DNA of 64,000 nucleotides from an uncultured Pelagibacteraceae bacterium (lineage in GTDB: Bacteria > Pseudomonadota > Alphaproteobacteria > Pelagibacterales > Pelagibacteraceae), in assembly GCA_902630065.1 (NCBI GenBank), contig CACOTF010000002.1, positions 52,169 to 116,168 on the forward strand, in the 5' to 3' direction. Of this stretch, positions 33,144 through 54,242 are shown piece by piece (the first letter of the stretch is position 1; the number at the start of each line of letters is the position of its first letter). A model generated the notes under the pieces. That model had not been told where the DNA came from, made no database searches, and saw nothing but the letters and a program-made list of their open reading frames with translations. The position numbers and the translations under genes are program-made.

Positions 33144-33825
33144 TGAAACTATAAAAATCGGAATACCCAGTAAAGGACGTTTAAAATCTGGAGTTCTTGA
33201 TATTTTTAAAAAGAAAAAATTAAAAATTTTCTCAGAGAGAGGTGAAAGAGAATTAATTGGTAAAGTTAAAGGAAGACCTGACATTTCAATTTTATATTTA
33301 CATGCAAGAGAAGCTTTAGAACAATTATCAATTGGAAATTTAGAAATTGCGATCAGTGGGTTGGATCTTTTAAAAGAATCTGAAGTAAATATTCAAAAAA
33401 ATATTAAATTAGAAAAGAAACTTAATTTTGGTCATGCCTCATTAGTTCTGGCCTGTGCAAATGATTTTATCGATTTGTTTACAACATTGGATTTAGATGA
33501 AGTTGCAGATGAATATAAAAAAAAGAATAAATCTTTATTAAAAATTGGCACTAAATATCCAAATCTTACAAGAGAATTTCTATATTCAAGAGGTGTAACT
33601 AACTTTACAACAACAAAGTCATTAGGCAGCACAGAACTGATGATTGCCATGAACACTGCTCAAGTTATATCTGACATAACAAGTACAGGGACAACACTTA
33701 AACAAAATAATCTTAAAATACTATCTGATGGAGAGATATTAAAATCTCAAGCATGCATTTTTAGTTCAAGAAAAAATTTAAAGAAAAAAGGAGTAAAGAA
33801 ACTAATTAATTTATTGATCAAGTAA
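33136..33825 (+). CDS. hisG: ATP phosphoribosyltransferase, short form
   Basis: IGIPSKGRLKSGVLDIFKKKKL; DISILYLHAREALEQLSIGNLEIAISGLDLL; DITSTGTTLKQNNLKIL. Confidence 0.93.
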   Translation: MSNETIKIGIPSKGRLKSGVLDIFKKKKLKIFSERGERELIGKVKGRPDISILYLHAREALEQLSIGNLEIAISGLDLLKESEVNIQKNIKLEKKLNFGHASLVLACANDFIDLFTTLDLDEVADEYKKKNKSLLKIGTKYPNLTREFLYSRGVTNFTTTKSLGSTELMIAMNTAQVISDITSTGTTLKQNNLKILSDGEILKSQACIFSSRKNLKKKGVKKLINLLIK

Positions 33826-34326
33826 ATTAGATGCCACTCTTACATATCTACCAGTACTAGCATTTTCAGCTCTATTTAATTTAAATTTTTTATTTATAAT
33901 TCTTTGTGTTTCCATTTTAGTATGTCCTGATTTTAAAAGTTGTTTCGCAGTTTTAACTTTTTCATTAAATTCTTTTTTTTGGTTAATAGTAACTTCGTGA
34001 TCTTCTCCAAATCTTACTCCAACACTTCCTAAATTTGGATTTCTATTATTGCCAATCATATCTTTAGATTTTTTTAATTTAAGTTTTTCTGATAATTCTA
34101 ATCTATCTTTTAAAGCTAAATCTGCCTCAGATTTTGTTGTGTAATACTGAACCCCTTGAAATTTTTTAGGTATGTTAGAATTTTCGTTTGGTTTTGGTTT
34201 ATAGAAAACAATTTTATATTTTGCATCTTTAGGTGCTTTCTTTCTTCTTGGGTCGTCAGCAAAATCATAAACTGATACTTCCCTGATTTGATTAAGTATT
34301 TTTCTTTTTTTCAGTTTTTTTGCCAT
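33811..34326 (-). CDS. Lys-rich hypothetical protein (171 aa)
   Basis: ORF only; basic, ends overlapping hisG tail; no domain recognised. Confidence 0.5.
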   Translation of the reverse strand: MAKKLKKRKILNQIREVSVYDFADDPRRKKAPKDAKYKIVFYKPKPNENSNIPKKFQGVQYYTTKSEADLALKDRLELSEKLKLKKSKDMIGNNRNPNLGSVGVRFGEDHEVTINQKKEFNEKVKTAKQLLKSGHTKMETQRIINKKFKLNRAENASTGRYVRVASNLLDQ

Positions 34327-34805
34327 AAAGATTTAAATATTTTTATTTTTTCAGTAGTTATATTTTTAAATACCCAAACTTTTCTTTTATAAATTATTTG
34401 TTCAAATTCAATTTTTGATTTACTTAAACACTCAGTAAAAAATAATCCTTTCTTTTTTCTACCTTCAGCTCTTTTATCATAATTTTTTAATGGTTCATTG
34501 GCTCTCTTTAAAAGCATACTTACATATTCTTTACTTCCAATATTTGTCAGTTTTGCAAATTGCCCAGTACTTGTGTGACCTTTTTCAAGAGAGGCATCAT
34601 TTTTATGTTCGTAATTTCCTTTACCTATAAAATTATTCTCTTTTATTTGTTTAAGCTCATTTATAGTTTTTGCTTTAAAAATATTCTCGGTAGAAGTTTG
34701 TTTCCAGCACCATAATTGTTCAGTTGAATTAAAATAAAAGCTATCTTCTGTATATCCTTTATAGTTACCATCTGTACGTCTTTGATATAAGATTTTATTT
34801 TTCAT
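34311..34805 (-). CDS. Hypothetical protein (164 aa)
   Basis: ORF overlapping both neighbours on the same strand; no domain recognised. Confidence 0.5.
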   Translation of the reverse strand: MKNKILYQRRTDGNYKGYTEDSFYFNSTEQLWCWKQTSTENIFKAKTINELKQIKENNFIGKGNYEHKNDASLEKGHTSTGQFAKLTNIGSKEYVSMLLKRANEPLKNYDKRAEGRKKKGLFFTECLSKSKIEFEQIIYKRKVWVFKNITTEKIKIFKSLWQKN

Positions 34806-36009: not shown

Positions 36010-38610
36010 ATGACAAATTTTTCTGAAACTGAATTAATCCCATTCGCACTTAGGATAATTAAAAATCATAATGATGGGATTAATACAAAAAATCTAATTG
36101 CAAGTTTAAGGCATGATATGCAGCCAAATGGTGAAGATTTGGAAATATTAAAAAATAGGTCTGATGATAAATTTAGTCAAAAAGTTAGAAATCTTAAATC
36201 ACATAGGACTTTAGAAAATGAAGGCTATGCAGATTTTATTGTAGATAAATTTTATATTTCTCAAGCTGGTTTAGATTTCTTAAGTGATTTAAATGAAAAT
36301 GATTTCTTTTCAATATTGAAAAAACAAAAGACTATATTGCCAAGAGAAGAAATATTAGATTTGAAAATAAGTTTGAATTTGGAATTATCTGCAAGAACTA
36401 TAAATAATCTTATTAAAAATGAAATTTTTACTATTAGAGATCTATTAGAATGGGATGAAAAAAAACTTATATCTATACCTGGTTTTGGAAGAAAAAGTTT
36501 AAATGAAATTAATAATTTTTTAGATTATTACAAATTAAAATTTATAGAAAAAAATAATGATGACAATTTAGACATTTACATTAAAGAAAAAAAATTTTTA
36601 GATTTGGAAACTATTTCTATAAATATTTTAACAGAATGGCCTCTATCAGTAAGAACATTTAATGCTTTAAAACAAGAAAATATAATTTTTCTTGGAGATT
36701 TATTGTCTTACAATGAAAATTCTTTACTTAAACTAAAAAATTTTGGCATAAAATCATTAAAAGAAATTCATGAATTATTCCAAAGATTTAACATCGATAA
36801 GGATATATATAATTATGATTTATCTAATTGGGAAAATTTAAGATATCAATTAATAATCAATCAAAAAAAACATAAAATAAATCAAAACAAAAAAAATTTA
36901 ACTGGACTAAATAAATCTATCTTTAAAGACTTTGAAAAATTCAAAGAAAAATTTTATGAAACTGAAAAATTAATAATAAATAAAAATATTGAGCCAACTG
37001 AATTAGAAAAACTAATTTTAGATGACATCGAATTAATTATTTCCCTGCTAACTGATAGAATGGTTATATTTTTTACTGGTAGATATGGTTACAAAGAAAA
37101 TTATAAAACTCTTGATGAGTTGGGGAAAAAATTTAGTGTAACTAGAGAAAGAGTTAGACAGCTTGAGAAAAATTTAAATTTTTCATTGGTAAAACTTGGA
37201 AAAATTGAAAAAAAATCATTAGTTAAGTTTTTTGATAAATATGAGTATGTAAGTTTTCATAAGCTTTTTCCAACATTGGATAAAAACTTTACTGATACCG
37301 CTCGAGGCACAACTGAAATTACTAGAGATAAATTGGTAATATTTATGGAATATTTTTGTGGAGTTGATCAAGAATATTTTAAAACACCCGAAAGAGAACT
37401 TTGGCACTTCGATATAGAAAAACTCTCTGAAATTTTTACAGTTATTCCAAGCGGAATATCTAAAGATAATTTTGTTGAAGTAGTAAAAGAAAATTTTGGA
37501 TACAACAGTTTCGTTTCTAAATCTGCAATTGAATTTATGATTAAAAAAAAACTTATAAAAATACATGAAGAAAAAATTTATCCATTAAAAATGAGAAAAA
37601 ATTTAGAGGTAACTCATATTTTAGTCTCTTATCCCAAAGGATTGCATTGGAGAAAAATTGCAGAAATAGGAAATAAATCATTTACATCAAATAATTGGGA
37701 TTTAAGCAGAATTGTTGGCGACTCATCATTAAATATGATTTCAAATCAAAATATTTATTTATGTGAGAGGGGAACATATAAGCTGTTTAGAAGATGTCCT
37801 GAAATTAAAAATAAAGACGAAATTATAAATTTTTTTATCAAATATCTTAAAGAGAATAATGCTGAACAATCTCCAATGGAACCTGTTTTTAAAGAAATAA
37901 TTAAATTAACCCAATTTAAAGATTTAAATTTTTATGACGCAAGAGCAATTATAAAAAAATTTGGCAACGAAGAAGGATTGTTTCATAAAGGTACCTCAGG
38001 AACAAATACAGTTAGTTTAAATAAAAAAATCAAATTGGTGTCACTTAAAGATAAAATAAGAGAGATTATCTCTAGCACATCAGAAGAGGTAAACCTTAAA
38101 GATATTATAAATAAATTACAGAAAACTAATGAAGATATACCTGTCGATCTTCATTTAGGTGACCTTGTTGACAATATGGAAATATTTAGAATTAGCCCTG
38201 GAACATTTTTAAATTTTGAAGATGGACTAAAACTCTGTGACAAAGATGATGTAAATTTTGTTTTAGATAAATTATTAGATAAATATGAGTTTATAACTAA
38301 TGGTTTTATGAGAGAAAAAATTAATGATGAATTAGGATTTAATTTATCCAATTTCTATTATGACACTCTTTCAAGAATATTAGCAAAAGAAAATAACTGG
38401 TTTTATGGTTCAAATTACTTAAGTAAAAAAAAAGAAAAAGTAATAAGTGTGCAAGAGTATATAAAACAACAATATGATGATAATTTAAGTAAAAATGAGA
38501 ATTATGAAAATATCACAAAAAAAATAGGTATTTCAAAAATGTATTTTGATAATATAGTGTATCAATCAATAAATAATTTTAACACTGATTGGATACACAA
38601 AGATGAATAA
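36010..38610 (+). CDS. Multi-domain DNA-binding/regulatory protein: N-terminal winged-helix-like domain, two alpha-CTD-like HhH domains, sigma-70 region-4-like HTH, C-terminal winged-helix (HARE-HTH-like) modules
   Basis: FSQKVRNLKSHRTLENEGYADF...FYISQAGLDFL; LELSARTINNLIKNEIFTIRDLLEWDEKKLISIPGFGRKSLNEI and LSVRTFNALKQENIIFLGDLLSYNENSLLKLKNFGIKSLKEI; TLDELGKKFSVTRERVRQLEKN; VTHILVSYPKGLHWRKIAEIGNKSF. Confidence 0.65.
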   Translation: MTNFSETELIPFALRIIKNHNDGINTKNLIASLRHDMQPNGEDLEILKNRSDDKFSQKVRNLKSHRTLENEGYADFIVDKFYISQAGLDFLSDLNENDFFSILKKQKTILPREEILDLKISLNLELSARTINNLIKNEIFTIRDLLEWDEKKLISIPGFGRKSLNEINNFLDYYKLKFIEKNNDDNLDIYIKEKKFLDLETISINILTEWPLSVRTFNALKQENIIFLGDLLSYNENSLLKLKNFGIKSLKEIHELFQRFNIDKDIYNYDLSNWENLRYQLIINQKKHKINQNKKNLTGLNKSIFKDFEKFKEKFYETEKLIINKNIEPTELEKLILDDIELIISLLTDRMVIFFTGRYGYKENYKTLDELGKKFSVTRERVRQLEKNLNFSLVKLGKIEKKSLVKFFDKYEYVSFHKLFPTLDKNFTDTARGTTEITRDKLVIFMEYFCGVDQEYFKTPERELWHFDIEKLSEIFTVIPSGISKDNFVEVVKENFGYNSFVSKSAIEFMIKKKLIKIHEEKIYPLKMRKNLEVTHILVSYPKGLHWRKIAEIGNKSFTSNNWDLSRIVGDSSLNMISNQNIYLCERGTYKLFRRCPEIKNKDEIINFFIKYLKENNAEQSPMEPVFKEIIKLTQFKDLNFYDARAIIKKFGNEEGLFHKGTSGTNTVSLNKKIKLVSLKDKIREIISSTSEEVNLKDIINKLQKTNEDIPVDLHLGDLVDNMEIFRISPGTFLNFEDGLKLCDKDDVNFVLDKLLDKYEFITNGFMREKINDELGFNLSNFYYDTLSRILAKENNWFYGSNYLSKKKEKVISVQEYIKQQYDDNLSKNENYENITKKIGISKMYFDNIVYQSINNFNTDWIHKDE

Positions 38611-40144
38611 AGATAGTGTAGATATAAGACCTACAGTAGGTTATTTATCAATTCTCCCTTCGATCTCATATAAACCTTGGTATGCAATAGCGGAGTTTGT
38701 TGATAATTCCCTTCAAAGTTACCTTGATAAAAAAAGCAAGCTAAAAAAAATTCACTCTAGTAATTGGAAATTAAGAATTGGAATTTACATAACTGCTTAT
38801 AAAATAAAAATAATAGACAATGCTGGAGGTATTGCAGAAAAGGATTACTCAAGAGCATTTAGAGCTGCTGCAAGACCTGAAAAAAGAGATGGATTATCAG
38901 AATTTGGAATGGGTATGAAAACAGCAGCTTGCTGGTTTTCTCCTGTATGGGAAGTTAAAAGCAAAGCAATCGGAGAGAGAGTCCAAAAAACTGTAAAATT
39001 TGATATTGAAAAGATCGTTAAAGATGACATTGAAGAACTTGATATAACTGAAGTTTCATCACCAATAAACCATCATGGAACCGAGATTAATTTATATAAA
39101 CTTAGGAGAGGATATAGCGGTTTTAAAAAAAAAATTAAAGAACATTTAGCGTCAATGTATCGATTATATATAAAAAAAAATGAGATAGAAATAAGAGTAA
39201 ATGATGAAAAGCTAGAGTATAGCTTGCCTCCAATTTTAAATGCACCTTACTTTCATGAAGTTGGAGTTGTTAAAAATAATAAAAAATTAAAATGGATTAA
39301 AGATATCAACTTTAAGTATGGAGAATCCAAAAATGTTACTGGTTATGTAGGAATTTTTGATGAGGGTAGATTGGGTTTTGCAAAAACTAAGTATGCAGGT
39401 TTTTCATTATTTAGAAGAAACAGATTGATAGTAGGAGTAGGTGAGGATGAAGGCTATAGACCGTCTGAGATATTTGGAAACAAACAAAGCCATAGACATC
39501 AAAGAATTTTTGGAGAATTACATTTAAATGATCAAGAAGTTTCACATACAAAAGATAGTTTTTTATGGGATGATAAAGAATTGATGGAATTTATTGATAA
39601 ACTAAAAAAAAATACTCAAAAGGGCCCACTCAATATTTATGATCAAGCAAATAATTTCAGACTTGACAGAAGATCTAGAGATATAAAAATTCAAACTTCA
39701 GAAGGTTTGGATGGAGCTATTAAATTAGCACCAACTGCATTAAAAATTCTTCAGAACAACACTATACCAAAGCAAATCCAAACACTTAAAGAAAAACCTA
39801 AACCAAAAGATAAAGAAGTAAGACGAAAACAATTAAAATTTGAAGGTTTTATTTGGAATTTTGAAATAGTCTTAAATTACGATAAAAATGAAAGAGACTG
39901 GATTCAAGTCTATGAAAAAGGAAATAAAACAAAAGATATAACAATTATTGTAGCTATGGGAATGGGCTTTACTCAACAATACTTTGGTACCAAGCCAGAG
40001 GAAGTTGAAGGGATGTTAGCATTAATTGAATATATAGCCCTTGCTGAAATTGTTGAAAAAGATAGAGGCACATCAAAAGCCCATGCAATAAGATTGTCTT
40101 TAAATGAAATAATTAGACAACTGCCTCCAGATTTAGGTTATTAA
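38603..40144 (+). CDS. MORC-like GHKL (Hsp90/MutL-type) ATPase
   Basis: AIAEFVDNSLQSYL, IIDNAGGIAEKD, RDGLSEFGMGMKTAACWFSPVWEV; start overlaps previous ORF. Confidence 0.88.
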   Translation: MNKDSVDIRPTVGYLSILPSISYKPWYAIAEFVDNSLQSYLDKKSKLKKIHSSNWKLRIGIYITAYKIKIIDNAGGIAEKDYSRAFRAAARPEKRDGLSEFGMGMKTAACWFSPVWEVKSKAIGERVQKTVKFDIEKIVKDDIEELDITEVSSPINHHGTEINLYKLRRGYSGFKKKIKEHLASMYRLYIKKNEIEIRVNDEKLEYSLPPILNAPYFHEVGVVKNNKKLKWIKDINFKYGESKNVTGYVGIFDEGRLGFAKTKYAGFSLFRRNRLIVGVGEDEGYRPSEIFGNKQSHRHQRIFGELHLNDQEVSHTKDSFLWDDKELMEFIDKLKKNTQKGPLNIYDQANNFRLDRRSRDIKIQTSEGLDGAIKLAPTALKILQNNTIPKQIQTLKEKPKPKDKEVRRKQLKFEGFIWNFEIVLNYDKNERDWIQVYEKGNKTKDITIIVAMGMGFTQQYFGTKPEEVEGMLALIEYIALAEIVEKDRGTSKAHAIRLSLNEIIRQLPPDLGY

Positions 40145-40145
40145 A

Positions 40146-42683
40146 ATGCAAGAAACAACAGTTTCAATTGACACTAATAATTTTAAAAAATGGGATCCAA
40201 ATCAAGAAGGACAAAGATTTAAAGATTTTTTAAATTTTAAAAAAAAAGATGATGAGTCTTTAGACGAAAATCAGATTTCAGATCAGTCTTCACAAATTCT
40301 TTCATTATGTATGGAACCAACTTTAAATTTAGAAAAATTTCGATCAACAGGTCTTGTTATAGGACAAGTGCAAAGTGGTAAAACTCTATCAATGACTGCT
40401 GTTTCAGCGATGGCGCAAGATAATGGTTTTGGAATTGTTATTGTTATGTCAGGTTCAGTTTCTCCACTTTCAAACCAAACAGCCAGTAGATTAGTTAAGG
40501 ATTTAAAAGGTAGAAAAATAAAAAAAATAATTAATAATCCAAAAAATAACTGGAGCGTGGAGGATACTCAAAAAGTAAATCGATTTATCACAACTTTCAA
40601 TAATCCTTCGATTTCAAAAGAAAGACAAGATACACTTTTGATAGTAACACACAAAAATCCAGCAAAGATAAGAGATTTAACTAAAATTTTTTCAGATCAA
40701 TATAATAATATAAAAAATATTCCTATATTAATAATTGACGATGAGTGTGACCACCATTCGTTAAATGGTAAAGACTATTTGAATGCTGTTGAAAGGCTGA
40801 CTGATAGACAGCGTGAAAGGTACGATGAAATCTACAGAATAAATTTAGGTGACACATGGGATAAACTTAGTGACGAATTTGGAATTGGGATTGATAAATT
40901 AAAACAAATAAATAATTTTACAGGTAATAATGAACCAAAAACAGGAAGTTGGATATTAATAGAAGAAATTGAGACAAAAACTTTTTCTGAAATAGAAAAT
41001 TTAAGAAATACATTTAATTTACATACATATCTTGGTTATACAGCCACACCTCAAGCACTTACTGTTATTGATCAAGTAAACAAATTAAAACCTGATTTTG
41101 TTCATATTTTACCTCCTGGTAATAATTATACAGGTTTAGAAGTATTTTTTCCTCAATCTCAAGACAAGTTTTCACACGAAAATAGCATATATATAAATGA
41201 TCTTGAGGAAAATATTAATGAAATAATTTCAGATAATTATAAACCTGAAAGCTTTACAACAGCATTGCATATTTTTCTTATTGGTGTTGCCGTAGGTATA
41301 ATAAATGGCGAAGATAAAGAAATTAATAAGAATAGATCTATGATAATTCATCCACACAATGAAACAGATGCACATGCAAGATTTGTTAAATATACTAGTG
41401 GGGTAATAGATGAAATTAAAAATGGACTCTCACTTAATCCCTTAGATAACGCCTACAAGTCAATAGTTGATCAATTAAAGAAGTCATATGAAACTCTAAA
41501 GACTAAAAACTCACCAAAAAACATTCCAAAATTTGATGATGATCTTCTTAAAAATATTGAGTATGCGGCGAATGATACTCTATTAGTAGAATTTAACGCT
41601 AGAGAAGGTAAGATCGAAGAAGTTGATTGGGACAATGAATATGCAGTAATCCTTGTAGGCGGTGTCGGTTTAGAAAGAGGGTATACAGTTAAAGGATTAA
41701 CAGTATCTTACTTATCTAGAAGTGCTGGAGGACGACAAAAAGATACTCTGCTTCAAAGAGCCAGATTTTTTGGATATCACCAAAAATATAAAGATTTTGT
41801 GCAAATTTATTTAACAAAAAACATGCAACAGAATTATCAGACCATATCTCAATCTAATAAAAATTTATTCAACTCAATTGAGAATTTCAAAAAAAATAAC
41901 CCAAATGCAAGTTTTAAAGATTGGGTTCCGGAATATATAGCAACAAATACAGCAAATCTAAACCTAACGAGAAAGGGCGTTAAAAGAAGAAACACAATTA
42001 TTAATTATAATTCCAATAATCCTCTTATAAATAGATGTAATCATCTTTTAAGTGATAATGAGTTAAAAAATAATCAAGATATTTACAAAAATTTGTTTCA
42101 CAAAAACATCGACAATCTTGTTCATTTAAAAAACTTCAAGAATTTAAAACCTGAGTATAAAGAATGGGCTTCAAGAAGAAACATTTATTTATCAACGCAA
42201 ATGAATATGAAAGATCTTTATAATTTAATTTCTCAATTAAAATTTCATAGTTCAGAATATAAAGAATTTTTAACCAGTAAAACAAATTTTGAGTTATATG
42301 CTAAAAGTGAGGACGAAAATATTAGTAAAAGAATATGTCCTATATTTTTTATGAATTACAAAAGCGAAAATGAAAAAGATCTCAAAAGAGGTAATTTACC
42401 AAACAGTTTTAAAATTAATCCACATGCTGGAAAAAATACAAATTATGAAAGGTATGATCAACGAACATACAATTTATTTCCTGGCGATAGGTCTATTCAT
42501 CATGATTTTCTAACTGGCGAAGTATTACCAAGTGATGAGAAAAATATAGGAAAAACTTATGCCTCAATTCAAGTTTATAATTTTGACGAGGTAAATTGTA
42601 AAGGTAAAGTAACAAAAAATGTCCCTTATTTTAATATTTATCCAGCTTCTGATCTATGGGTGGATATAACCAGAGTTGAATAA
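40146..42683 (+). CDS. Z1-domain superfamily II helicase/endonuclease-associated protein
   Basis: VIGQVQSGKTLSMTAVSAMAQDNGF (Z1 Walker A), ILIIDDECDHHSLN, GYTATPQA, VGGVGLERGYTVKGLTVSYLSRSAGGRQKDTLLQRARFFGY. Confidence 0.9.
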   Translation: MQETTVSIDTNNFKKWDPNQEGQRFKDFLNFKKKDDESLDENQISDQSSQILSLCMEPTLNLEKFRSTGLVIGQVQSGKTLSMTAVSAMAQDNGFGIVIVMSGSVSPLSNQTASRLVKDLKGRKIKKIINNPKNNWSVEDTQKVNRFITTFNNPSISKERQDTLLIVTHKNPAKIRDLTKIFSDQYNNIKNIPILIIDDECDHHSLNGKDYLNAVERLTDRQRERYDEIYRINLGDTWDKLSDEFGIGIDKLKQINNFTGNNEPKTGSWILIEEIETKTFSEIENLRNTFNLHTYLGYTATPQALTVIDQVNKLKPDFVHILPPGNNYTGLEVFFPQSQDKFSHENSIYINDLEENINEIISDNYKPESFTTALHIFLIGVAVGIINGEDKEINKNRSMIIHPHNETDAHARFVKYTSGVIDEIKNGLSLNPLDNAYKSIVDQLKKSYETLKTKNSPKNIPKFDDDLLKNIEYAANDTLLVEFNAREGKIEEVDWDNEYAVILVGGVGLERGYTVKGLTVSYLSRSAGGRQKDTLLQRARFFGYHQKYKDFVQIYLTKNMQQNYQTISQSNKNLFNSIENFKKNNPNASFKDWVPEYIATNTANLNLTRKGVKRRNTIINYNSNNPLINRCNHLLSDNELKNNQDIYKNLFHKNIDNLVHLKNFKNLKPEYKEWASRRNIYLSTQMNMKDLYNLISQLKFHSSEYKEFLTSKTNFELYAKSEDENISKRICPIFFMNYKSENEKDLKRGNLPNSFKINPHAGKNTNYERYDQRTYNLFPGDRSIHHDFLTGEVLPSDEKNIGKTYASIQVYNFDEVNCKGKVTKNVPYFNIYPASDLWVDITRVE

Positions 42684-43643
42684 ATGTATTACAAATTATT
42701 TAAAGAGTTATCTTCACCAAATACTAATAATGAAAATGAGTTTAAATCATCATTAATTCCAAAGACAAGTCATAGAGTTGCAAAAAATTCAAAGGGTTTA
42801 CCATCAATTCTTATAAATACAATGAAGGATGATAGTTTAGTAAGTAATTATAAGGGAGCAAATATATTATTAAGATTTAAAGAAAATTGTAAAATTCACG
42901 AGGAAAATAAATCAAGTATATTTACAATTTTATCTTGTAGATCAGATGATGACTTAACAATTAAAATGTTTTTGGATATTTGTGAAACTACAATTTCACA
43001 ATTAAATAATGAGCCTAGCGCTAAAGAAATCAAAGAGATTACAAATACAATTATTGATCTTTTTAGAGAATTATCAGATAAAAAAAGAAGTATTATTGGA
43101 TTGTGGGGAGAACTTTTTATTATTTATTCTAGTTCAAACATTGAAAAAGCGTTGCAAGCTTGGCACGAAAACCCAACTGACAAATATGATTTTTATGACA
43201 ATAATGAAGCATTAGAGGTAAAATGTACTACTAGTACCGATAGAATTCATAAATTTAATCATGACCAATTATTAAGTGAGATTGATAAACATTACATTGC
43301 ATCGATTATGGTTTCAGAAAACACAATCGATGGATTAAGTGTTGTTGATTTATTTGAAAATATCAAAAAAAAAAAATTAGCAGTTAATCTTTTAAACAAA
43401 CTTCAGAAAAATTTTTATAGAGTTATTGGTTCTAATCCTAAAGATGATATTAATGAATTTAAATTTGATATTCAGTATTCTAAGAAAAATATAATGTATT
43501 TTCACTTACATGACGTAACATCTTTAATCAATAATGATGATGCTATTACTGAAATTTCATACAAAGTGGATTTATCAAGAAAAAATTGTGTGGACAAATT
43601 AAGTGAAAATAAATTTACTTCTTGCTTGTATTTTCCAAATTAA
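42684..43643 (+). CDS. DUF4420-type PD-(D/E)XK motif protein
   Basis: IIGLWGELFIIY...ALQAWHENPTDKYDFYDNNEALEVKCTTSTDRIHKFNHDQL. Confidence 0.85.
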   Translation: MYYKLFKELSSPNTNNENEFKSSLIPKTSHRVAKNSKGLPSILINTMKDDSLVSNYKGANILLRFKENCKIHEENKSSIFTILSCRSDDDLTIKMFLDICETTISQLNNEPSAKEIKEITNTIIDLFRELSDKKRSIIGLWGELFIIYSSSNIEKALQAWHENPTDKYDFYDNNEALEVKCTTSTDRIHKFNHDQLLSEIDKHYIASIMVSENTIDGLSVVDLFENIKKKKLAVNLLNKLQKNFYRVIGSNPKDDINEFKFDIQYSKKNIMYFHLHDVTSLINNDDAITEISYKVDLSRKNCVDKLSENKFTSCLYFPN

Positions 43644-44889
43644 ATAAATTTTTTGCTATTTTAGAAATTACACCAACATTAACAGCATTCCCTATTGTAT
43701 TATAAAAATTCTCATCTCCTTCTGGGTAACTTTTTATTCCTTTAAAACCTTGAATATTTAAACATTCTTCGTGAGATAAATATCTATTTTTCCATGGTAA
43801 ATACGGAACTTGGCATACTGATGATGAAATTAAAGTTGGTGAATTTTTATTTCTTCTTATTCTTACTCCAGATGCTCTGAATGTTACAATCTTCTTTCTT
43901 AAGCTAAATCCATCTCCTTGGCAATTCCATTCTAATTTTTGATAAGCCTCAAATTCCAATTTAATTATCTCAGGTAAAATTTTATCAACCCAAGATTTAT
44001 TTATTTTATAAAATTCTCTACTTCTCTTAATCATTTTTATTTTCCAGTCAGGAAATTTTTTTGTTTTTACTCTTGCATATTTTGGAATTAATTCAAAAAT
44101 CTCTGTCTTTTTCTTATTTAATTTTACCCCAAAAGATCCTTTTGAATTTCTCAAAGCCTTAATTTTAGATGAAAAGGGAGTTTCATTTTCATACGGATAT
44201 GTTGCACCAAATTCCATGGCCCATAAGGGATTTGGTAGATATGTCTTCTTTGGTATTTTTTTTAAAAAGTATTTCCAGACATTTAAAATATTTTGTTTTT
44301 TTTCAGTCAATCTTTTATTTTTCTTTGGTTTTGATACCAAAAATTTTTTTAAGTTTGGTTTAGTTTTATATTTTTTTGGCCACTCAAAACTATCAAGCTT
44401 ATTTTGCTTTGCAACAATGTAAAGTCTATCTCTTGTCTGTGGAATTTTAAAATCAACTGGAGATAATATTTTTTGATCTACATCATAATTTAAATTTTCT
44501 ATTTGTTTTTTCATAAAATTCCAAGTTTCTCCATTATTATGATTAAGTAAGTTTGGAACATTTTCTAGAAATAAATATTTAGGTTTGTGATATTTAATTA
44601 TTTTAATTAATTGAAAAAACATTTTACCAGCAACTTTATGACTAAATCCATTTGCATACCCTGCTTTTGAAAATGGCTGACAAGGAAATCCTGCACACAA
44701 TATGTCATGTTTAGGAACATTTTTTGGTTTAATTTTTGTAATATCTCCTTCTGGATTTATCTTAAAATTTTCTTCATAATGACGTCGTAAATACTTCTCT
44801 ATTTCACATGCAAAAACACATTCGTGACCTAAATCGCTTAAAGCAAGGTGAAATCCCCCCAATCCTGCAAATAAATCTATAAATTTCAT
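43615..44889 (-). CDS. DNA (cytosine-5)-methyltransferase
   Basis: FIDLFAGLGGFHLALSDLGHECVFACEIE (motif I), ILCAGFPCQPFSKAGYANGF (motif IV PCQ), FLENVPNLL (motif VI), IQGFKGIKSYPE and IGNAVNVGV (motifs IX/X). Confidence 0.95.
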   Translation of the reverse strand: MKFIDLFAGLGGFHLALSDLGHECVFACEIEKYLRRHYEENFKINPEGDITKIKPKNVPKHDILCAGFPCQPFSKAGYANGFSHKVAGKMFFQLIKIIKYHKPKYLFLENVPNLLNHNNGETWNFMKKQIENLNYDVDQKILSPVDFKIPQTRDRLYIVAKQNKLDSFEWPKKYKTKPNLKKFLVSKPKKNKRLTEKKQNILNVWKYFLKKIPKKTYLPNPLWAMEFGATYPYENETPFSSKIKALRNSKGSFGVKLNKKKTEIFELIPKYARVKTKKFPDWKIKMIKRSREFYKINKSWVDKILPEIIKLEFEAYQKLEWNCQGDGFSLRKKIVTFRASGVRIRRNKNSPTLISSSVCQVPYLPWKNRYLSHEECLNIQGFKGIKSYPEGDENFYNTIGNAVNVGVISKIAKNLFNLENTSKK

Positions 44890-45153: not shown

Positions 45154-45837
45154 ATGAAGTGGAACAGAAAATTTAATTATCCAACATCTACAAGAGCTCT
45201 TTATAATGGTAAACGTCTATATGATGTTAATAATGAAAAATTACCATCCGTCACAACAATACTCGCTGCCACAAAGCCACAAGAAGAAATAGATTCTTTA
45301 AATAGATGGCGTGAAAAAGTAGGCCACAAACAAGCAGATATAATTTCAAGAGAAGCCACTGAGCGTGGTTCTAGCATGCACGATTACATTGAAAAATTCT
45401 TGTTAGGAAAACTTAATCTTGATTTATTAGGAGATAACACAAGAGAAAGAATGATGGCAGATCAGATTATTGAGAATGGTTTGAGAAATAGACTTCAAGA
45501 AATATGGGGCTGCGAATCAACTTTATATTATCCTGGAAAATACGCTGGTGCTGCAGATTGTATTGGTGTTTATGAAAATTATCAAAGTCTTATTGATTTC
45601 AAACAATCGAATAAACCACGAAAACATGAATGGAATACTACATATTATATGCAACTGGGTGCTTATTCACTTGCTCATAACACTGTATATGGAACCCATA
45701 TAAATCAAGGAGTTATATTAGTTTGTACAAAAGATAATACTTTTCAAAGATTTGTAATTTATGGTGATGAGCTTAAAGAATATCAAATTAAGTTTTTGGA
45801 AAGAGTAGAACAATATTATTCACAAAAAAAAATTTAA
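45154..45837 (+). CDS. PD-(D/E)XK exonuclease, MGME1/phage exonuclease-like
   Basis: LPSVTTILAATKPQE...RGSSMHDYIEKFL...AGAADCIGVYENYQSLIDFKQSNKPR...YYMQLGAYSLAHN (D-x(n)-DFKQ plus QLGAY motif). Confidence 0.75.
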   Translation: MKWNRKFNYPTSTRALYNGKRLYDVNNEKLPSVTTILAATKPQEEIDSLNRWREKVGHKQADIISREATERGSSMHDYIEKFLLGKLNLDLLGDNTRERMMADQIIENGLRNRLQEIWGCESTLYYPGKYAGAADCIGVYENYQSLIDFKQSNKPRKHEWNTTYYMQLGAYSLAHNTVYGTHINQGVILVCTKDNTFQRFVIYGDELKEYQIKFLERVEQYYSQKKI

Positions 45838-45893
45838 ATTTTTTATTGACTTTAAAAATTACGTAATATATATTTAAACTACTAAATAAATTA

Positions 45894-46000
45894 GTACTTG
45901 TTTAGATCTAGTGAAATTTAGTCCTTTCTTTTCATTCAATCTAAACAACCTAGTTTATTTTAAACGAAGGTACTAGTTTAGATCCTGAGTTATCCTTTCT
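45894..46000. repeat. Pair of imperfect direct repeats in intergenic DNA
   Basis: 45894-45930 GTACTTGTTTAGATCTAGTGAAATTTAGTCCTTTCTT and 45970-46000 GTACTAGTTTAGATCCTGAGTTATCCTTTCT. Confidence 0.45.
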
Positions 46001-46057
46001 ACTCGCTTTCTAAGCTCATATTTAAACTAGTCCTCGTTAACAAAAAAAGAGGAAAAG

Positions 46058-46951
46058 ATGTTTGAATATTTAATAATTGGTGGTTTAGCTGTTGTAGTGA
46101 TCTTTGCTTTTTTGATTTATCAAAAAATAGGCTCAAAAAACAAGGAAAATACTGATGAAATTGGTCTTAGCGATATCAAAGAGAGACTAGGGAATATTGA
46201 AAATGCCCAACAAGCCATCGAGAAATTAAACGAAAAAATCATAGATTTTGAAAATATTTTCAACAATAAGACTAAAAGAGGAAAGCTTGGAGAGGAGTAT
46301 TTAGAAGAAATTGTCAAAGATACATTGGTTGCAAAACACTATTCATTTCAACACACCTTATCAAATAATAAACGAGTAGATTGTCTATTAACTTTCGGTA
46401 CAACAAATGAAAATATTTGTATCGACTCAAAGTTTGTTTGGGATAATTATGAAAAATATTTTAAAGAAACTGATGAGGATAAAAAAACTCAATATCTTAA
46501 AGAATTTGAAAAAGATTTAAATAATCATATTAAAGCAATATCAGAAAAATACATTGTTACAGGAGAAACTGCTCAATTAGCAATTATGTTTATAGGTTCT
46601 GAGGGAGTTTTTAGAGCTATTGAGGACATATCTCTGGATTTTATTAAGGAAGCACGTAAGAAAAATGTGATCATTGCTTCACCAAATACACTATGGGCTT
46701 TCTTGAGAACTTACAAATTACTCATTCAAAACAGAGAAATGTATGAGCAAACTCATGTTATCCAAAAAGAAGTTTCAGAATTATCAAAAGTTATTGATGC
46801 TTTTGAAAAAGGTTTTAAAGATTTAGAAAATAGACACAATAAAAATTCTGAAACAATCCAGGATTTAAAAACTTCGGTAAGTAAAATTACAAATACTTCA
46901 CAGAAAATACAAAACCTAGACTTAGAAAATAAAAAAACAGGAGAAGAGTAA
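46058..46951 (+). CDS. rmuC: RmuC-family DNA recombination protein
   Basis: N-terminal TM, KRGKLGEEYLEEIVKDTL, KRVDCLLTFG...ICIDSKFVWDNYEKYF, LWAFLRTYKLLIQ. Confidence 0.85.
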   Translation: MFEYLIIGGLAVVVIFAFLIYQKIGSKNKENTDEIGLSDIKERLGNIENAQQAIEKLNEKIIDFENIFNNKTKRGKLGEEYLEEIVKDTLVAKHYSFQHTLSNNKRVDCLLTFGTTNENICIDSKFVWDNYEKYFKETDEDKKTQYLKEFEKDLNNHIKAISEKYIVTGETAQLAIMFIGSEGVFRAIEDISLDFIKEARKKNVIIASPNTLWAFLRTYKLLIQNREMYEQTHVIQKEVSELSKVIDAFEKGFKDLENRHNKNSETIQDLKTSVSKITNTSQKIQNLDLENKKTGEE

Positions 46952-46953
46952 TA

Positions 46954-48393
46954 ATGGATTATGTAATATGGGATGTAGAGACAGATAGTGCTGATACTAA
47001 TTATGCAACTATAATTGAAATTGGTGCATTGCTTTTAGATGAAAATTTCAGAGAAAAAGAGAGGTTTAGTGCGCGATGTAGAATCCCTCAAGATCGTGTT
47101 CCTTCCGCAACAGCTTTATGTGTTAACCGTTCAAGTATTGATCTACTAACAAAACAAAATCTTAGTCATTATCAGATGCTTAATCAAATTGAAGCTAAAT
47201 TCAAGGAATGGTCTCCTGCAACTTTCCTAGGTTACAGTTCAATTAATTTCGACGATGAAGTGATAAGGAAAGAATTTTTTAAAACTTTAAGAGAACCTTA
47301 CATTACAAATACAAAAGGAAATGTTAGACATGATGCTTTAAATATTGTTAGAGCTGCTTTTGCAGTTAATCCAGAAGTTTTAAATACTGAATTAAATCAT
47401 AAAGGAAATATTTCAATGAAATTAGAGTCTCTTGGAAGAATGAATGGATATGATACAGAAGCAGCACACTCAGCTTTATTTGACAGTGAACTTTGTGGGA
47501 AAATACTTTCAGAGATAAAAAAAAAGCAACCTAATCTTTGGGACGACTATTTAAGAACGAGTAGCAAGCAATCTGTTGAAGAAATAATTAAAAACGAAAC
47601 AATTTTAACAATCAATGAATATTTTTATTCAAGGAGTCGTTTGTATTTAATTGCACCACTTCATCCAAGCAATTGCATACATCCAGTTTATAAATGGGGC
47701 CAGGGTGTAGACATTAGAATAGACGTGGAACCATTATTTAAACTTTCTTATCAAGAACTTAAAAAAGAAATGCAAAAGACGCCAAAATTTTTGCGTACGA
47801 TCCGGTCTAACAAAGCACCAATTATAATTGATGCAAGTTATGGAATGAAAGTTGAACCTTATAGTGCAATTGGTCCTGAATTATTAAGAAAGAGGGCGGA
47901 AATGGTAAAATCAAATGCTAAGTTTGCTCAAGATGTCTGTAATATTTTAAAAGAAAATGCAGAGGAAAAAATGCAAACATCATCTCAAGAAGACGTAGAA
48001 TTTGAAGAGAGCATCTACAATGGATTTGCAACTAATAATGATAAATTTTTATTTCCAAAATTTCATGCAGCAGATTGGAAAGAAAAATTCTCAATGTTGG
48101 AGAAATTTGAAGATCAAAGAATGAAATATTTTGGTGAAAAATTAATATTTAATGAAGCCCCAGAAATTCTTCCTGAGACCACTCAAAAAAGAATAAAAAA
48201 ACAAATTAAAGATAGATTATTTTCTATGAATAAAGAGAAATGGCTTACACTTCCTGCAGCAGAAAATGAAATTGATAATTTGAGAGAAAATAAGCAACTA
48301 TTTTCATTCAAATCGGAAGAGGAAAAACTAAATTTTTTAGACGATATAGATAAATACTATAAATTTTTAAGAGATAAATATGAGAGCGCTTAA
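46954..48393 (+). CDS. sbcB: Exodeoxyribonuclease I (DEDD superfamily)
   Basis: VIWDVETDSADTNYATIIEIGALLLDENF; GYSSINFDDEVIRKEFF; AAHSALFDSELCGKIL; KSNAKFA. Confidence 0.88.
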   Translation: MDYVIWDVETDSADTNYATIIEIGALLLDENFREKERFSARCRIPQDRVPSATALCVNRSSIDLLTKQNLSHYQMLNQIEAKFKEWSPATFLGYSSINFDDEVIRKEFFKTLREPYITNTKGNVRHDALNIVRAAFAVNPEVLNTELNHKGNISMKLESLGRMNGYDTEAAHSALFDSELCGKILSEIKKKQPNLWDDYLRTSSKQSVEEIIKNETILTINEYFYSRSRLYLIAPLHPSNCIHPVYKWGQGVDIRIDVEPLFKLSYQELKKEMQKTPKFLRTIRSNKAPIIIDASYGMKVEPYSAIGPELLRKRAEMVKSNAKFAQDVCNILKENAEEKMQTSSQEDVEFEESIYNGFATNNDKFLFPKFHAADWKEKFSMLEKFEDQRMKYFGEKLIFNEAPEILPETTQKRIKKQIKDRLFSMNKEKWLTLPAAENEIDNLRENKQLFSFKSEEEKLNFLDDIDKYYKFLRDKYESA

Positions 48394-48395
48394 AT

Positions 48396-48830
48396 ATGAT
48401 TAAAAAGATTTTTAAATTATTCAAAAAGAAAACAAAATTTAAAAAAAAGATTGAGAAAGGTAATAAGGCAGAAGTAATCAATTTTATTAATAAGTCTAAA
48501 AAAAATAACAAAATTCAAACAAATGCTGATGAAGCAAGGAAAATGGATAATCTTGCTAAAGAATTAGTAGAAAACTACTTGAGAGCATCTAGAAAAAGTT
48601 TTTTGGATATGGGATACTGTTTTTATTTATTTTTATTTAGGGTTTTGCAAAGAATGATTTTTCAATTCAGTTACCCAGTTTACAGACATTATCTAAAAGC
48701 AACATGTAAAGAAATTTTAAACAACCATAAAGAATGGCTTCATGAGTTTAAAGAATGGAATAAGGCACCTACAGAGGGCAATCTAATTGGAGAGAAAAAA
48801 AAAGATAGTGACAACGATACTTTACACTAA
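48396..48830 (+). CDS. Hypothetical protein (144 aa)
   Basis: ORF in the sbcB-LRR gene string; no domain recognised. Confidence 0.45.
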   Translation: MIKKIFKLFKKKTKFKKKIEKGNKAEVINFINKSKKNNKIQTNADEARKMDNLAKELVENYLRASRKSFLDMGYCFYLFLFRVLQRMIFQFSYPVYRHYLKATCKEILNNHKEWLHEFKEWNKAPTEGNLIGEKKKDSDNDTLH

Positions 48831-48833
48831 AAT

Positions 48834-51800
48834 ATGAAAAAAAATAAAGATCCATATCCTATTACAGATGTTTACCATGTCACAGATACTTTAGTAGATG
48901 GTGCTACTGTAGTTGTAACTGATCTTTGCGATAACCTTTCAAATCATATTGATACTTACTGTGAGGATATTTTAAGCGATATAAAAAAAAAGAATTCAAA
49001 AAAATTTAATTCCATTTCAGTTTCAAATGGTGCAGATGGTGCATATCCTGTTTGGATAGGAGTTGATAAAAATAATAAAGTTAGAAAAATATTTGCCGAA
49101 ACATCTGGTGGAAGTTTTACATTGGGTGAAAAACACAAAACCCTTGTGTCTTGGAGTTGGAACAAAGAAGATATGAATGATCAATTTTTCACTAAAAGAA
49201 AGATTGATAAAAAAATTAAAAGAGAAAAACTTTTTGATATGAAAGTAACTTCAGGTGCAATAGCAGTTGCTGATCACGGTGGAAATTTTAGATTTGAACA
49301 TCATGAAATTTTAAAGGAGTCTTTAGATGATAAATATTTTAAAAAAGAAAACATTTTTCAAAATAATTATCCAATTGGATTATTTAAATTTAAATATGGT
49401 GCTGAAGCTAAATCAGAATCTTCATCATTTGCAACTTCCTCTATGCATGATGATAAGGTTGTTCATTTAGATGAATACAGAAATAGAACTTATGTTGAGT
49501 TTCTAAGCAACCTATTAGATGATACTTGTTACCCTACTAAATATATTTTTGAAGAATACCTAGAAGAAGCATTAGGATATAGAGATATTGTCAAATTAAA
49601 AGTTAATGATAAAAAAATTTCAGCAAATTATTTATCTGATAGGCTTCCAAAGGCATTACAAATTTTAAGAAAACAAACAAAAATATTATTTAAAGACAAT
49701 TTTAAAGAAGTTTACGAAATAAGAAAAAATCAATTTGAAAATCTAATATTTACAATAATAAGAGACATAGAACCTCAAGAACTAGACCTACCAAGTTTTG
49801 GAAAGAAAAAGACAAAAAAAAACGAAAAAAAGGTTGAGAACAAACTAACAGTCGAAACAGGCGGTCTACCTTATATTCAAGAAACTTTTTACGATGGTTA
49901 TAAACTTAAAGAAGAACCAACTCTAGAACACTCAGTTACAATTCCAATTAAAAACGGAAACTACCCCTGCTATGTACATACATATCCAGATAAAAGTGAT
50001 GATGAATATGATTTTAATTATGTAAAAATTGTGGTCGAGGGAATTGAAGGTTGTTATTTAAGCAGAGATCAAAAAGGAAAATTAGTTTTTAATAAAAGAC
50101 AAAAAGAGAGCTCTCTAATTAAAGAACATATAAAAAATAAATCTAAAACTATATCATTAGATCAAATTGTACTTAGAAATTCAGAAAATTTAGACGAATT
50201 AAGCAGGATTGATTTTGTAGAAGAATTAGAATTGCATGGATTAAAAAATATTAAAAATTGGAGCGGTCTATCTAAGTTAAAAAATCTCAAAACATTGAAA
50301 TTAGTTTCATGTGAAATTCAAAGTGACCAAAGTGAAAATTTTTTTAAAAATCTTTACTCTTTAAAAAATTTAATAAAATTTTCAATTGATGATAGCTGTT
50401 CTTTATCATTACCTAAAAAGAAATTATCTAATAATTTATATTTTAAGAAACTAAAATTATTTGAAATTGATTTCAGAAAAGATTGGAAAAAAAACACTAG
50501 CGAAACTAAACCAGACCATCAAGGTTATGGTAATGAAAATTTATATTTTTTAAATTTTTATCTCTTAAATATTTCTAATTTTCCAAATTTTGAAAAATTT
50601 AAAAGTTTAGAAAGAATAAACCTTTATAATATTTTTGATGAATATGAGCCAAATGGTAATTTATTTGGTTATAGATATGGATTAAGTACATTTGAAAAAA
50701 TCGGTAAACTTATTAAGAATTCAAAAAATTTAAGAGAAGTTTGGCTACACGGCTTCAAATTTCAAGGTGATATTAGCTTATATTCAAATACTGTATCCAC
50801 ATGTTTAAATGCATTAACTACAAAAAAAAATATATTAATTAATGGAAAAAAAATACAAGAAACTAAAAGTAATTTTAAAGATATAAATTCAATAGAACTT
50901 ATAAGTAGAATTGAAGAGTATCATGAGACCAAGATAATTTCTTTTGAAAAAAATAAACTTACACTTAGTTATTTTTCAATTTTATCAGATGAGAATAAAG
51001 ATTTCCAAAAAAAAATATTTAAACAAAAACCTGAAGAAATAATTATAAATCCAACCTATCAATTTGTTAGAAGTGAAATGATGTATGGAGATACATTTAA
51101 ACCATTTAAAAAACATATTTCTCAAAACAAAAATTTAAAAAGGCTATTTTTTAAATTTGATAACAAAATTGTAGATGATTATTGGGGAGATCTTGCTGGG
51201 TCTTGGTCTGAATGGGAGTGCAGAAATTTTTGTCAGTATATAAACGACCTATTAATACTTAATAAAAATTTAAAAATTTTCATAGATATTCCTAATCTTA
51301 ATGAGGAATTGAAAGATCTTGAAAATATCTCAAAATATATTTTGTTGTTTGAGTATTCTAAAATTTTAAGTGAGAAAAAAGAGACACGTAACAGATTAAT
51401 ATTTAAGCAATTACTTAATAAAGAAGTTAAGCAAATAATTGATAAATACTTATTAGAAGTAGTGGATACTTTAGTTGTAATTGAGGATAATTATGGATGG
51501 AACGACTCTACCAGCGTAAGAAATATTGAATTTTTAGATAGGTTTCAGTTTGAAGACGCTAGCCCATTTAAAATTAACATAAATACTAAGTCAATTAATC
51601 TTAGTTATGATGGAGAAAAGCCTTATGAAAAAGAAAGTAGATTTTTACAAGAAATGTTTGAGGATGATTTCTGGACTTATTCAGAAGAAAAATTTTATCA
51701 CTTTCTAAACGACAAAATTGAGGGAAACAGTTCTGACAAACCAATAATTTTAGTTAAACAAAAATATCTAGATAAATTAAAAACAACAATTTTTAAAAAT

Positions 51801-53123
51801 ATTAAACACTACTTTTATTTTGCAAAAGCCGATTATCGCTTTGATGATTATGACAACGTTCTTTACAAAAAATTTTGGAAAGAAAAAGAAATATTTACAC
51901 TACCTCAATCTATAAATTTTAAAAATTTGGAAACATTAAATATTATAGGTGGAAGAGATGTAAATTTAAAAAAACTATCTCAAGAAATAGATTTTACAAA
52001 GATTAAACAAATAATCTTAGAATCCTGTGTGGGGTCGGTTAGAGACTTTCCATATTGCCCCAATTTAAAGACTTTAATTATTACTGATAGATATTGTGCA
52101 AAAGCTAAAAATTATTCTAATTTTAAAAATTTACCTTCTTTAGAACATTTAGAATTCAAAAGCCTATTCAATTATAATGATAGTAGCTCAAGATGGTGTA
52201 CCACAGAGTTTGATTTTACAGATATTTACAAATTATCGAAATTGAAATTCTTAAAATTAAACCTATTAAATCCCGAATATTTACCACCCTTAAAAACTCT
52301 AAAAAATCTAGAAGATCTAAATTTATCTTTTAAAATCATCACTGGTGACATGGGATCCTATGACGGAATAATTAATGACAATATAAGAGATAAAGATTTT
52401 GATTTTTTAAAAAATTTAAATAATTTAAAATCAATAAGTATTGAATTACCTTTAGATCATTCGAGTGTAAAAGGTGAGCAATTAATTTCCTATATTAATT
52501 CAAATATTGAAGTTTTGGACTTGGAAGCTCAATACGATGATGCTGAAATACAACTAGCCTATCAAACTATAAATAAAATTATTAAAAGATTTAAAAATCT
52601 TAAAAAAATAAAATTAAAACTTAGCAGAAATAATAACTTCGAGTCTAATGATAAAGAAAAAATAATATATTTTAGAAAAACAGGAGAAAGATGGAAAGAA
52701 GGAAATAGCCCAAGACCGTTTATATTGGATTTTAATAATTTCTGTAAATTGAAATATTTAACAGATATTACCTTTAGTCAATTGTACAGAGATGAGATGG
52801 GATTTAAAATTAAAAACCCAAGATCAATAACAAAAATGAAAAATATTAAAAAAATAAATATAAAAAAAGAAAAATTTAAAACAGAAGACCTGCAATATAT
52901 AAGATCTATCACTTTAAATCCTAGAGATAATTTTTTAAAAGAATGTCAGAAAAAAGATAAATCAATTAAAAGTGAATATGATTTAAATGAAAAAGATAAG
53001 AAAAAATATGATAAGTTAAATAGAGAAATTAAATTTGATGGTTCAGATTGGAACTGGTCAGGTGATACAATTGACGAAATATTAAAAGGAAGAAAAAAGA
53101 AAAAAAGTGAAACAGCAAATTAA
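48834..53123 (+). CDS. Giant leucine-rich-repeat protein (1429 aa) with a possible DUF4241-like N-terminal domain
   Basis: Irregular LRR-like stretches (ELHGLKNIKNWSGLSKLKNLKTLKLVSCEIQ; LEHLEFKSL; LKFLKLNLLNPEYLPPLKTLKNLEDLNLSF); N-terminus ADGAYPVWIGVDKNNKVRKIFAET...LFDMKVTSGAIAVAD. Confidence 0.65.
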   Translation: MKKNKDPYPITDVYHVTDTLVDGATVVVTDLCDNLSNHIDTYCEDILSDIKKKNSKKFNSISVSNGADGAYPVWIGVDKNNKVRKIFAETSGGSFTLGEKHKTLVSWSWNKEDMNDQFFTKRKIDKKIKREKLFDMKVTSGAIAVADHGGNFRFEHHEILKESLDDKYFKKENIFQNNYPIGLFKFKYGAEAKSESSSFATSSMHDDKVVHLDEYRNRTYVEFLSNLLDDTCYPTKYIFEEYLEEALGYRDIVKLKVNDKKISANYLSDRLPKALQILRKQTKILFKDNFKEVYEIRKNQFENLIFTIIRDIEPQELDLPSFGKKKTKKNEKKVENKLTVETGGLPYIQETFYDGYKLKEEPTLEHSVTIPIKNGNYPCYVHTYPDKSDDEYDFNYVKIVVEGIEGCYLSRDQKGKLVFNKRQKESSLIKEHIKNKSKTISLDQIVLRNSENLDELSRIDFVEELELHGLKNIKNWSGLSKLKNLKTLKLVSCEIQSDQSENFFKNLYSLKNLIKFSIDDSCSLSLPKKKLSNNLYFKKLKLFEIDFRKDWKKNTSETKPDHQGYGNENLYFLNFYLLNISNFPNFEKFKSLERINLYNIFDEYEPNGNLFGYRYGLSTFEKIGKLIKNSKNLREVWLHGFKFQGDISLYSNTVSTCLNALTTKKNILINGKKIQETKSNFKDINSIELISRIEEYHETKIISFEKNKLTLSYFSILSDENKDFQKKIFKQKPEEIIINPTYQFVRSEMMYGDTFKPFKKHISQNKNLKRLFFKFDNKIVDDYWGDLAGSWSEWECRNFCQYINDLLILNKNLKIFIDIPNLNEELKDLENISKYILLFEYSKILSEKKETRNRLIFKQLLNKEVKQIIDKYLLEVVDTLVVIEDNYGWNDSTSVRNIEFLDRFQFEDASPFKININTKSINLSYDGEKPYEKESRFLQEMFEDDFWTYSEEKFYHFLNDKIEGNSSDKPIILVKQKYLDKLKTTIFKNIKHYFYFAKADYRFDDYDNVLYKKFWKEKEIFTLPQSINFKNLETLNIIGGRDVNLKKLSQEIDFTKIKQIILESCVGSVRDFPYCPNLKTLIITDRYCAKAKNYSNFKNLPSLEHLEFKSLFNYNDSSSRWCTTEFDFTDIYKLSKLKFLKLNLLNPEYLPPLKTLKNLEDLNLSFKIITGDMGSYDGIINDNIRDKDFDFLKNLNNLKSISIELPLDHSSVKGEQLISYINSNIEVLDLEAQYDDAEIQLAYQTINKIIKRFKNLKKIKLKLSRNNNFESNDKEKIIYFRKTGERWKEGNSPRPFILDFNNFCKLKYLTDITFSQLYRDEMGFKIKNPRSITKMKNIKKINIKKEKFKTEDLQYIRSITLNPRDNFLKECQKKDKSIKSEYDLNEKDKKKYDKLNREIKFDGSDWNWSGDTIDEILKGRKKKKSETAN

Positions 53124-54231: not shown

Positions 54232-54242
54232 TCTCTGTATAG

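Follow-up and report, generated by a model that had tools for sequence, protein, structure and literature searches.

The DNA window analysed here, a stretch of 64,000 nucleotides from an uncultured bacterium of the Pelagibacteraceae (Pelagibacterales, SAR11), carries at positions 36010..38610 on the plus strand an open reading frame with an ATG start for an 866-aa transcription-apparatus-like protein, to which we gave the working name TAM. As an earlier note on this DNA had described, the gene overlaps by 8 nt the start (38603) of the next gene, and it opens an operon whose other members encode a MORC-type GHKL ATPase (38603..40144, +; motifs EFVDNS, DNAGGI, and GMGMK; HATPase_c_3, 7e-14), a Z1 superfamily II helicase (40146..42683, +; Walker A GQVQSGKT, IIDDE, and DTLLQRARFFG; Z1, 2e-38), and a DUF4420 PD-(D/E)XK nuclease (42684..43643, +; LEVK; DUF4420, 3e-26). 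The Z1 gene lies 1 nt after MORC, and the DUF4420 gene starts directly after Z1. The identities that the note had assigned to these three genes were borne out by the Pfam matches and the catalytic motifs. One strict pattern for the MORC S5 motif, GxhhpxxRhl, gave no match, and the gene may encode a MORC or a paraMORC. A C5-cytosine DNA methyltransferase (43615..44889, minus strand; DNA_methylase in Pfam, with an HhaI-like N-terminal half) is encoded convergently and overlaps the DUF4420 gene by 29 nt. Past the methyltransferase, a run of DNA-exonuclease-type genes at 45154-55928 includes PD-(D/E)XK (weak), RmuC, exonuclease X-T C-terminal, DUF2130, and RecJ matches, as well as weak leucine-rich repeats in a protein of 1429 aa.

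TAM combines domains of restriction and transcription proteins and has no enzymatic domain. It begins with a winged helix of restriction-enzyme type (residues 1-95, 36010..36294, +; H-H-H-H-E-E-H in the structure model), which had been proposed from the sequence and is weakly Mrr_N-like. Over aa 6-93 this segment of ~95 aa is 45.6% identical to a phage HNH-endonuclease protein that adjoins an adenine methyltransferase and has a weak Mrr_N match of its own (0.0026); its further relatives are plasmid genes. Two domains of the type found at the C-terminus of the RNA polymerase alpha subunit (alpha-CTD) follow at aa 118-176 (36361..36537, +) and aa 203-262 (36616..36795, +). Pfam matched RNA_pol_A_CTD in two stretches (98.9 bits, E 1.3e-28), an rpoA-derived profile made here placed the domains at aa 122-176 and 207-263, and PF03118 run over the organism's own genome gave three matches above its cut-off, namely the host rpoA and the two TAM copies. 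Both copies are alpha-CTDs as defined by an HhH fold with the 265 DNA determinant, and both keep R265, N268, G296, K298, and S299. A sigma-70 region 4.1/4.2-like domain (aa 333-395, 37006..37194, +) retains an intact recognition helix, TRERVRQ, and scored 26.1 bits against a curated Sigma70_r4 cut-off of 24.1 (E 6.2e-6). The earlier note had recognized all three of these domains and had staked its parsing on their recovery in profile searches, a test that the parsing withstood.

The remainder of the protein is a C-terminal tandem winged-helix array (aa about 469-855, 37414..38574, +) common to all SAR11 relatives. Modelled separately (mean pLDDT 70), the C-terminus forms tandem winged helices, with those of SelB as the best solved match (E 3.5e-4); a profile search of the array against PDB sequences found nothing. 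The winged-helix part of the note's proposal for this region therefore stood, and the HARE-HTH part did not, as none of six family members scanned matched HARE-HTH in Pfam even at E 1. The full-length AlphaFold model was poor (pLDDT 52) and too weak for fold claims beyond the small domains, for which it matched the sigma region to the sigma-A region 4 fold (TM about 0.6-0.7) and an alpha-CTD to that of Caulobacter bound to AT-rich DNA (TM 0.66, 44% identity).

We then compared the surfaces that these domains have kept and lost. Among 10 alpha-CTD copies from 6 relatives, the DNA-contact positions (R265, N268, G296, K298, and S299) were 88% identical; R265, N268, and G296 were invariant, and K298 and S299 were each present in 7 of 10. 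The positions of the sigma-contact (261) and CRP-contact (287) determinants were 17% identical against a background of 37%; the Fisher value for this difference, 4e-15, is descriptive at most because its cells are not independent. The RERxRQ motif of sigma region 4 was kept in all eight sequences compared. In RNA polymerase, R265 of the alpha-CTD inserts into the minor groove, and R584, E585, and R588 of E. coli sigma region 4 touch the -35 element. Given these roles and the conservation of the corresponding residues, DNA binding is most likely the activity that TAM has retained. Neither Sigma70_r2 nor Sigma70_r3 matched TAM or its relatives in Pfam. TAM is thus not a sigma-70 factor as defined by region 2, which provides core binding and -10 recognition, and transcription initiation would not be its job.

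The same pattern bears on the idea that TAM is a guard or decoy whose alpha-CTDs and sigma region 4 imitate polymerase surfaces attacked by phages, so that the attack switches on the MORC-Z1 nuclease. The targets themselves are established for phage T4, in which Alt and ModA modify alpha Arg265 and AsiA binds sigma region 4 (PMC2988021). In TAM and its relatives, R265 is present in all 10 alpha-CTDs compared, the region 4.1-4.2 fold is kept, and the protein is incapable of sigma-factor activity, all as expected of bait. However, selection for mimicry should have preserved the other alpha surfaces, and these have drifted; the TAM alpha-CTDs are no closer to the host rpoA than to other alphaproteobacterial rpoA (about 36 vs 36-40 bits). 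The methyltransferase partner, moreover, points to discrimination between self and non-self DNA, and we regard the decoy explanation as very improbable.

Comparison with described systems located the operon near several of them. The note knew of no such component as a regular member of Z1 systems, a view that needs correction, since the A component of the anti-phage MZA system (MzaABCDE), in which a MutL/MORC-like ATPase, Z1, and DUF4420 are combined, also has a sigma-70 region 4. TAM nevertheless remains distinct, as MzaA (NF041931) is a whole sigma-70, whereas TAM shares only region 4 with it and adds two alpha-CTDs and the winged-helix array. Positions 237-717 of the NF041931 model matched one chromosomal reading frame of some 700 aa, which is evidently rpoD, with 420-426 bits, compared to 35 bits for TAM against a cut-off of 800, and TAM was rejected as an MzaA. 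The operon was likewise rejected as an MZA system: the B, C, and D profiles matched far below their curated cut-offs (14.7 vs 850, 93.7 vs 1500, and 16.6 vs 420 bits), and the neighbouring genes scanned included no AIPR gene (MzaE). The MORC gene, the SFII helicase with a DThhQxuRhFG motif, and the RE-fold nuclease of the window correspond to the third MORC operon type of Iyer et al. (2008; PMC2292703), which often includes a cytosine methylase; Candidatus Pelagibacter is among the species given for its neighbourhood figure. The text of that study mentions no sigma or RNA polymerase alpha component, whereas the window operon has TAM. The type II systems of Miller et al. (2022; PMC9523054) share the core of Z1, PD-(D/E)XK nuclease, and cytosine methyltransferase and associate with MORC and "a putative transcriptional regulator", the domains of which are not described in the text, but they include AIPR.

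Domains of the transcription-initiation type occur in other defence proteins as well. In PglW of type 2 BREX, an alpha-CTD-like domain is followed by winged helices, a part that has been read as nucleic-acid-binding (PMC12839542), and its profile gave a weak match (25-38 bits); PglW, however, is a kinase with nuclease and STAND-like parts, whereas TAM has two alpha-CTDs and sigma region 4. Sigma-like HTHs are present in BrxL (PMC12839542) and in a DndH variant (PMC10853773). An enterobacterial "sigma factor-like helix-turn-helix DNA-binding protein" of 816 aa shares homology with TAM in sigma region 4 and in the C-terminal array (23% identity, E 2e-17) but has no alpha-CTD by Pfam and lies behind an Mrr-nuclease/SF2 helicase gene rather than with MORC-Z1. 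No protein joining two alpha-CTDs to sigma region 4 was found in the literature searched (Gao et al., 2020, and Aravind and Iyer, 2012, lay outside the search).

The C-terminal array was found in 7 of 399 same-genus genomes and in the query alone among 399 phylum-wide genomes. In six of the seven same-genus carriers, the TAM-type gene lies directly upstream of MORC-Z1 genes, and in the seventh it lies beside an SNF2/NOV_C set; the co-occurrence with MORC/Z1 genes on which the earlier note had made its reading depend is thus observed. The N-terminal architecture varies among these loci: a winged helix with two alpha-CTDs in the window, in the near-identical locus L067, and in L070; a winged helix with one alpha-CTD in L068; and no N-terminal winged helix in L069 (two alpha-CTDs) and L082 (one). 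The adjoining effector genes also differ, being MORC-Z1-DUF4420 in the window, L067, L068, and L070, another MORC-Z1 pair accompanied by an MTaX1 protein in L069 and L082, and a ParB-like/SNF2/NOV_C set with an N6/N4 methylase in L071. The 8-nt overlap of the TAM-type gene with the next gene is the same in L068 and L070, where a 121-123-aa gene (L068:6263-6628 and L070:11421-11792) stands between the TAM-type gene and MORC; the L068 copy of this small gene is 32% identical to part of the L082 MTaX1 protein. A NERD plus UvrD-like helicase gene recurs beside SAR11 restriction loci with and without a TAM-type gene nearby (L071:6573-8468, which is PADLOC C3a187, L082:248-2122, and L053:13171-15048).

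The MORC and Z1 trees of carriers and non-carriers contain at least two separate changes of carrier state, forced by well-supported branches. Three same-genus MORC-Z1 loci with a visible upstream region (L051, L052, and L053) lack a TAM-type gene, indicating that the MORC-Z1 effectors can do without TAM. L050 and L054 were left out of this count, since each contig stops short of the MORC start or close to it. Just upstream of the TAM-type gene in L069, the reading frame at 8966-9082 is a MORC 5' remnant (69% over 35 aa to the L051 MORC), and its position suggests that the TAM-type gene may have been inserted there at a MORC start.

More distant kin accompany other machinery. In the complete SAR11 genome G012, dndB, C, D, and E are followed by a gene for a 641-aa protein with two alpha-CTDs and sigma region 4 (L062:7724-14559), an arrangement seen in 1 of 250 genus genomes; because its homology rests mostly on the alpha-CTD and sigma domains, this protein could be a parallel assembly. 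In Lelliottia and E. coli, the 816-aa sigma region 4 and winged-helix relative follows the Mrr-nuclease/SF2-helicase gene. The E. coli two-gene unit (L092:6771-11451; helicase of about 742 aa, genes 1 bp apart) is a candidate uncharacterised defence pair, and the 816-aa gene is present in 83 of 5,426 E. coli genomes, nearly full length in 73 and IS-broken in some copies. An AAA_13 (PDC-S06) neighbour on IncHI plasmids was considered as an effector link and discarded; there, IS1 occupies the place of the chromosomal Mrr-helicase gene. A search for other alpha-CTD/sigma region 4 fusions on plasmids returned rpoA and rpoD themselves, and two protein/profile scans of viral collections found no TAM relatives; one phage has a counterpart of the N-terminal winged helix alone. 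Three SAR11 frames with an alpha-CTD (L021, L022, and L023) are about 500 aa long vs the usual 342-353 aa of rpoA frames and may represent either rpoA frames with an extension or another fusion.

Compared with the effectors, the methyltransferase is a more constant companion. The window-type C5-methyltransferase occurs in 5 of 399 same-genus genomes, all five of which carry the TAM family (p 2.6e-10, or 1.5e-8 with two near-identical genomes collapsed). Across both effector classes it is 71-76% identical, whereas the MORC and Z1 proteins of L069 and L082 are only 36-37% and 30-31% identical to those of the window. TAM and the methyltransferase are therefore linked to each other more closely than either is to any one type of motor and nuclease. 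The pairing is not absolute, as L068 and L071 carry other methyltransferases, and the adjacency of the genes could by itself account for some of it.

These associations also weigh on the possibility that TAM reads modified DNA as a type IV-like sensor, using its winged helices, with the polymerase-type domains adding only non-specific affinity. The relationship of its winged helix to restriction-enzyme N-termini fits such a role, as does the position of its kin beside dnd phosphorothioation genes and an Mrr-type nuclease-helicase. However, neither HARE-HTH nor any other known modified-base reader was recovered, and the SAR11 carriers' own methyltransferase argues for sparing methylated DNA rather than attacking it, which makes this role quite improbable.

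A further alternative is that TAM, as a large counterpart of the C proteins, regulates transcription of the restriction operon: it would bind promoter DNA or RNA polymerase and thereby time the expression of nuclease vs methyltransferase. In its favour, the TAM-type gene is the first in the SAR11 MORC-Z1 operons, both the alpha-CTD and sigma region 4 belong to the modules that contact promoters, and the annotation of the enterobacterial relatives as sigma factor-like DNA-binding proteins comes with GO terms for transcription initiation. On the other hand, the enterobacterial relative is the second gene, after the helicase, and the dnd-linked protein is encoded last, after dndE. No conserved operator or block was obvious in six regions upstream of TAM-type genes, promoter-like sites there were no more frequent than expected by chance, and Rfam gave no match. 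Because the gene is not always in the leading position and its upstream regions share no obvious block, the autonomous regulator that the earlier note had offered as one option fits less well than its other option, a sensor of DNA that directs the ATPase, helicase, and nuclease. The loss of the sigma- and CRP-contact surfaces from the alpha-CTDs also speaks against regulation, and a winged-helix array with three polymerase-type domains is much for a controller; we consider the regulator unlikely. Small unannotated genes recur upstream of TAM-type genes (window 33811-34805, L070:4267-5195, and L068:835-1630) within otherwise different wider flanks; one of them carries the motif EQLWCWKQTS or ELWCWKQTS, and those of the window had no Pfam match.

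We tentatively favour, at somewhat less than even confidence, the explanation that TAM is the DNA-recognition (targeting) subunit, exchangeable between systems, of a restriction complex against which methylation protects, rather than a regulator of the operon. TAM would bind DNA through its two alpha-CTDs (minor groove of A/T-rich, UP-element-like DNA), its sigma region 4 HTH (-35-like DNA), and its winged helices. On the bound DNA it would recruit or license its co-translated partners, the MORC ATPase, the Z1 helicase, and the DUF4420 nuclease. The partner C5-methyltransferase would mark host DNA, which would thereby be spared. Complex formation, the sequence bound, and methylation as the self signal are the parts of this scheme that we infer. 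A targeting subunit is the simplest explanation because TAM keeps its DNA surfaces, lacks the initiation parts, is coupled in translation to different engines, and is paired with one methyltransferase. It is further favoured by the occurrence of TAM kin with two MORC-Z1 classes, with the SNF2/NOV_C set, and, distantly, with dndBCDE and the Mrr-helicase, and by the reading of the corresponding PglW part as nucleic-acid-binding (PMC12839542). Against this explanation, the C-terminal half stays conserved whichever effectors accompany it, and it thus singles out no effector-docking surface in TAM.

In a more specific and rather unlikely version, promoter architecture (UP-element plus -35-like DNA), read with pieces of RNA polymerase, would decide which targets the restriction system picks, or a strike of phage anti-polymerase proteins on those pieces would trigger it; TAM would then be a portable "polymerase mimic" cassette for unrelated effector machines. 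Domains of the transcription-initiation type are also part of MZA, the BREX proteins PglW and BrxL, and the DndH variant, where they call for an explanation. In the TAM family, a single protein unites the two kinds of promoter-contact domain and has none of the sigma parts that initiate transcription; the DNA residues are kept and the effectors exchanged, and this combination makes it testable whether a restriction complex reads promoters or uses polymerase pieces as bait. To our knowledge, target recognition by MORC-Z1 systems has not been described, and TAM is a candidate targeting subunit for them.
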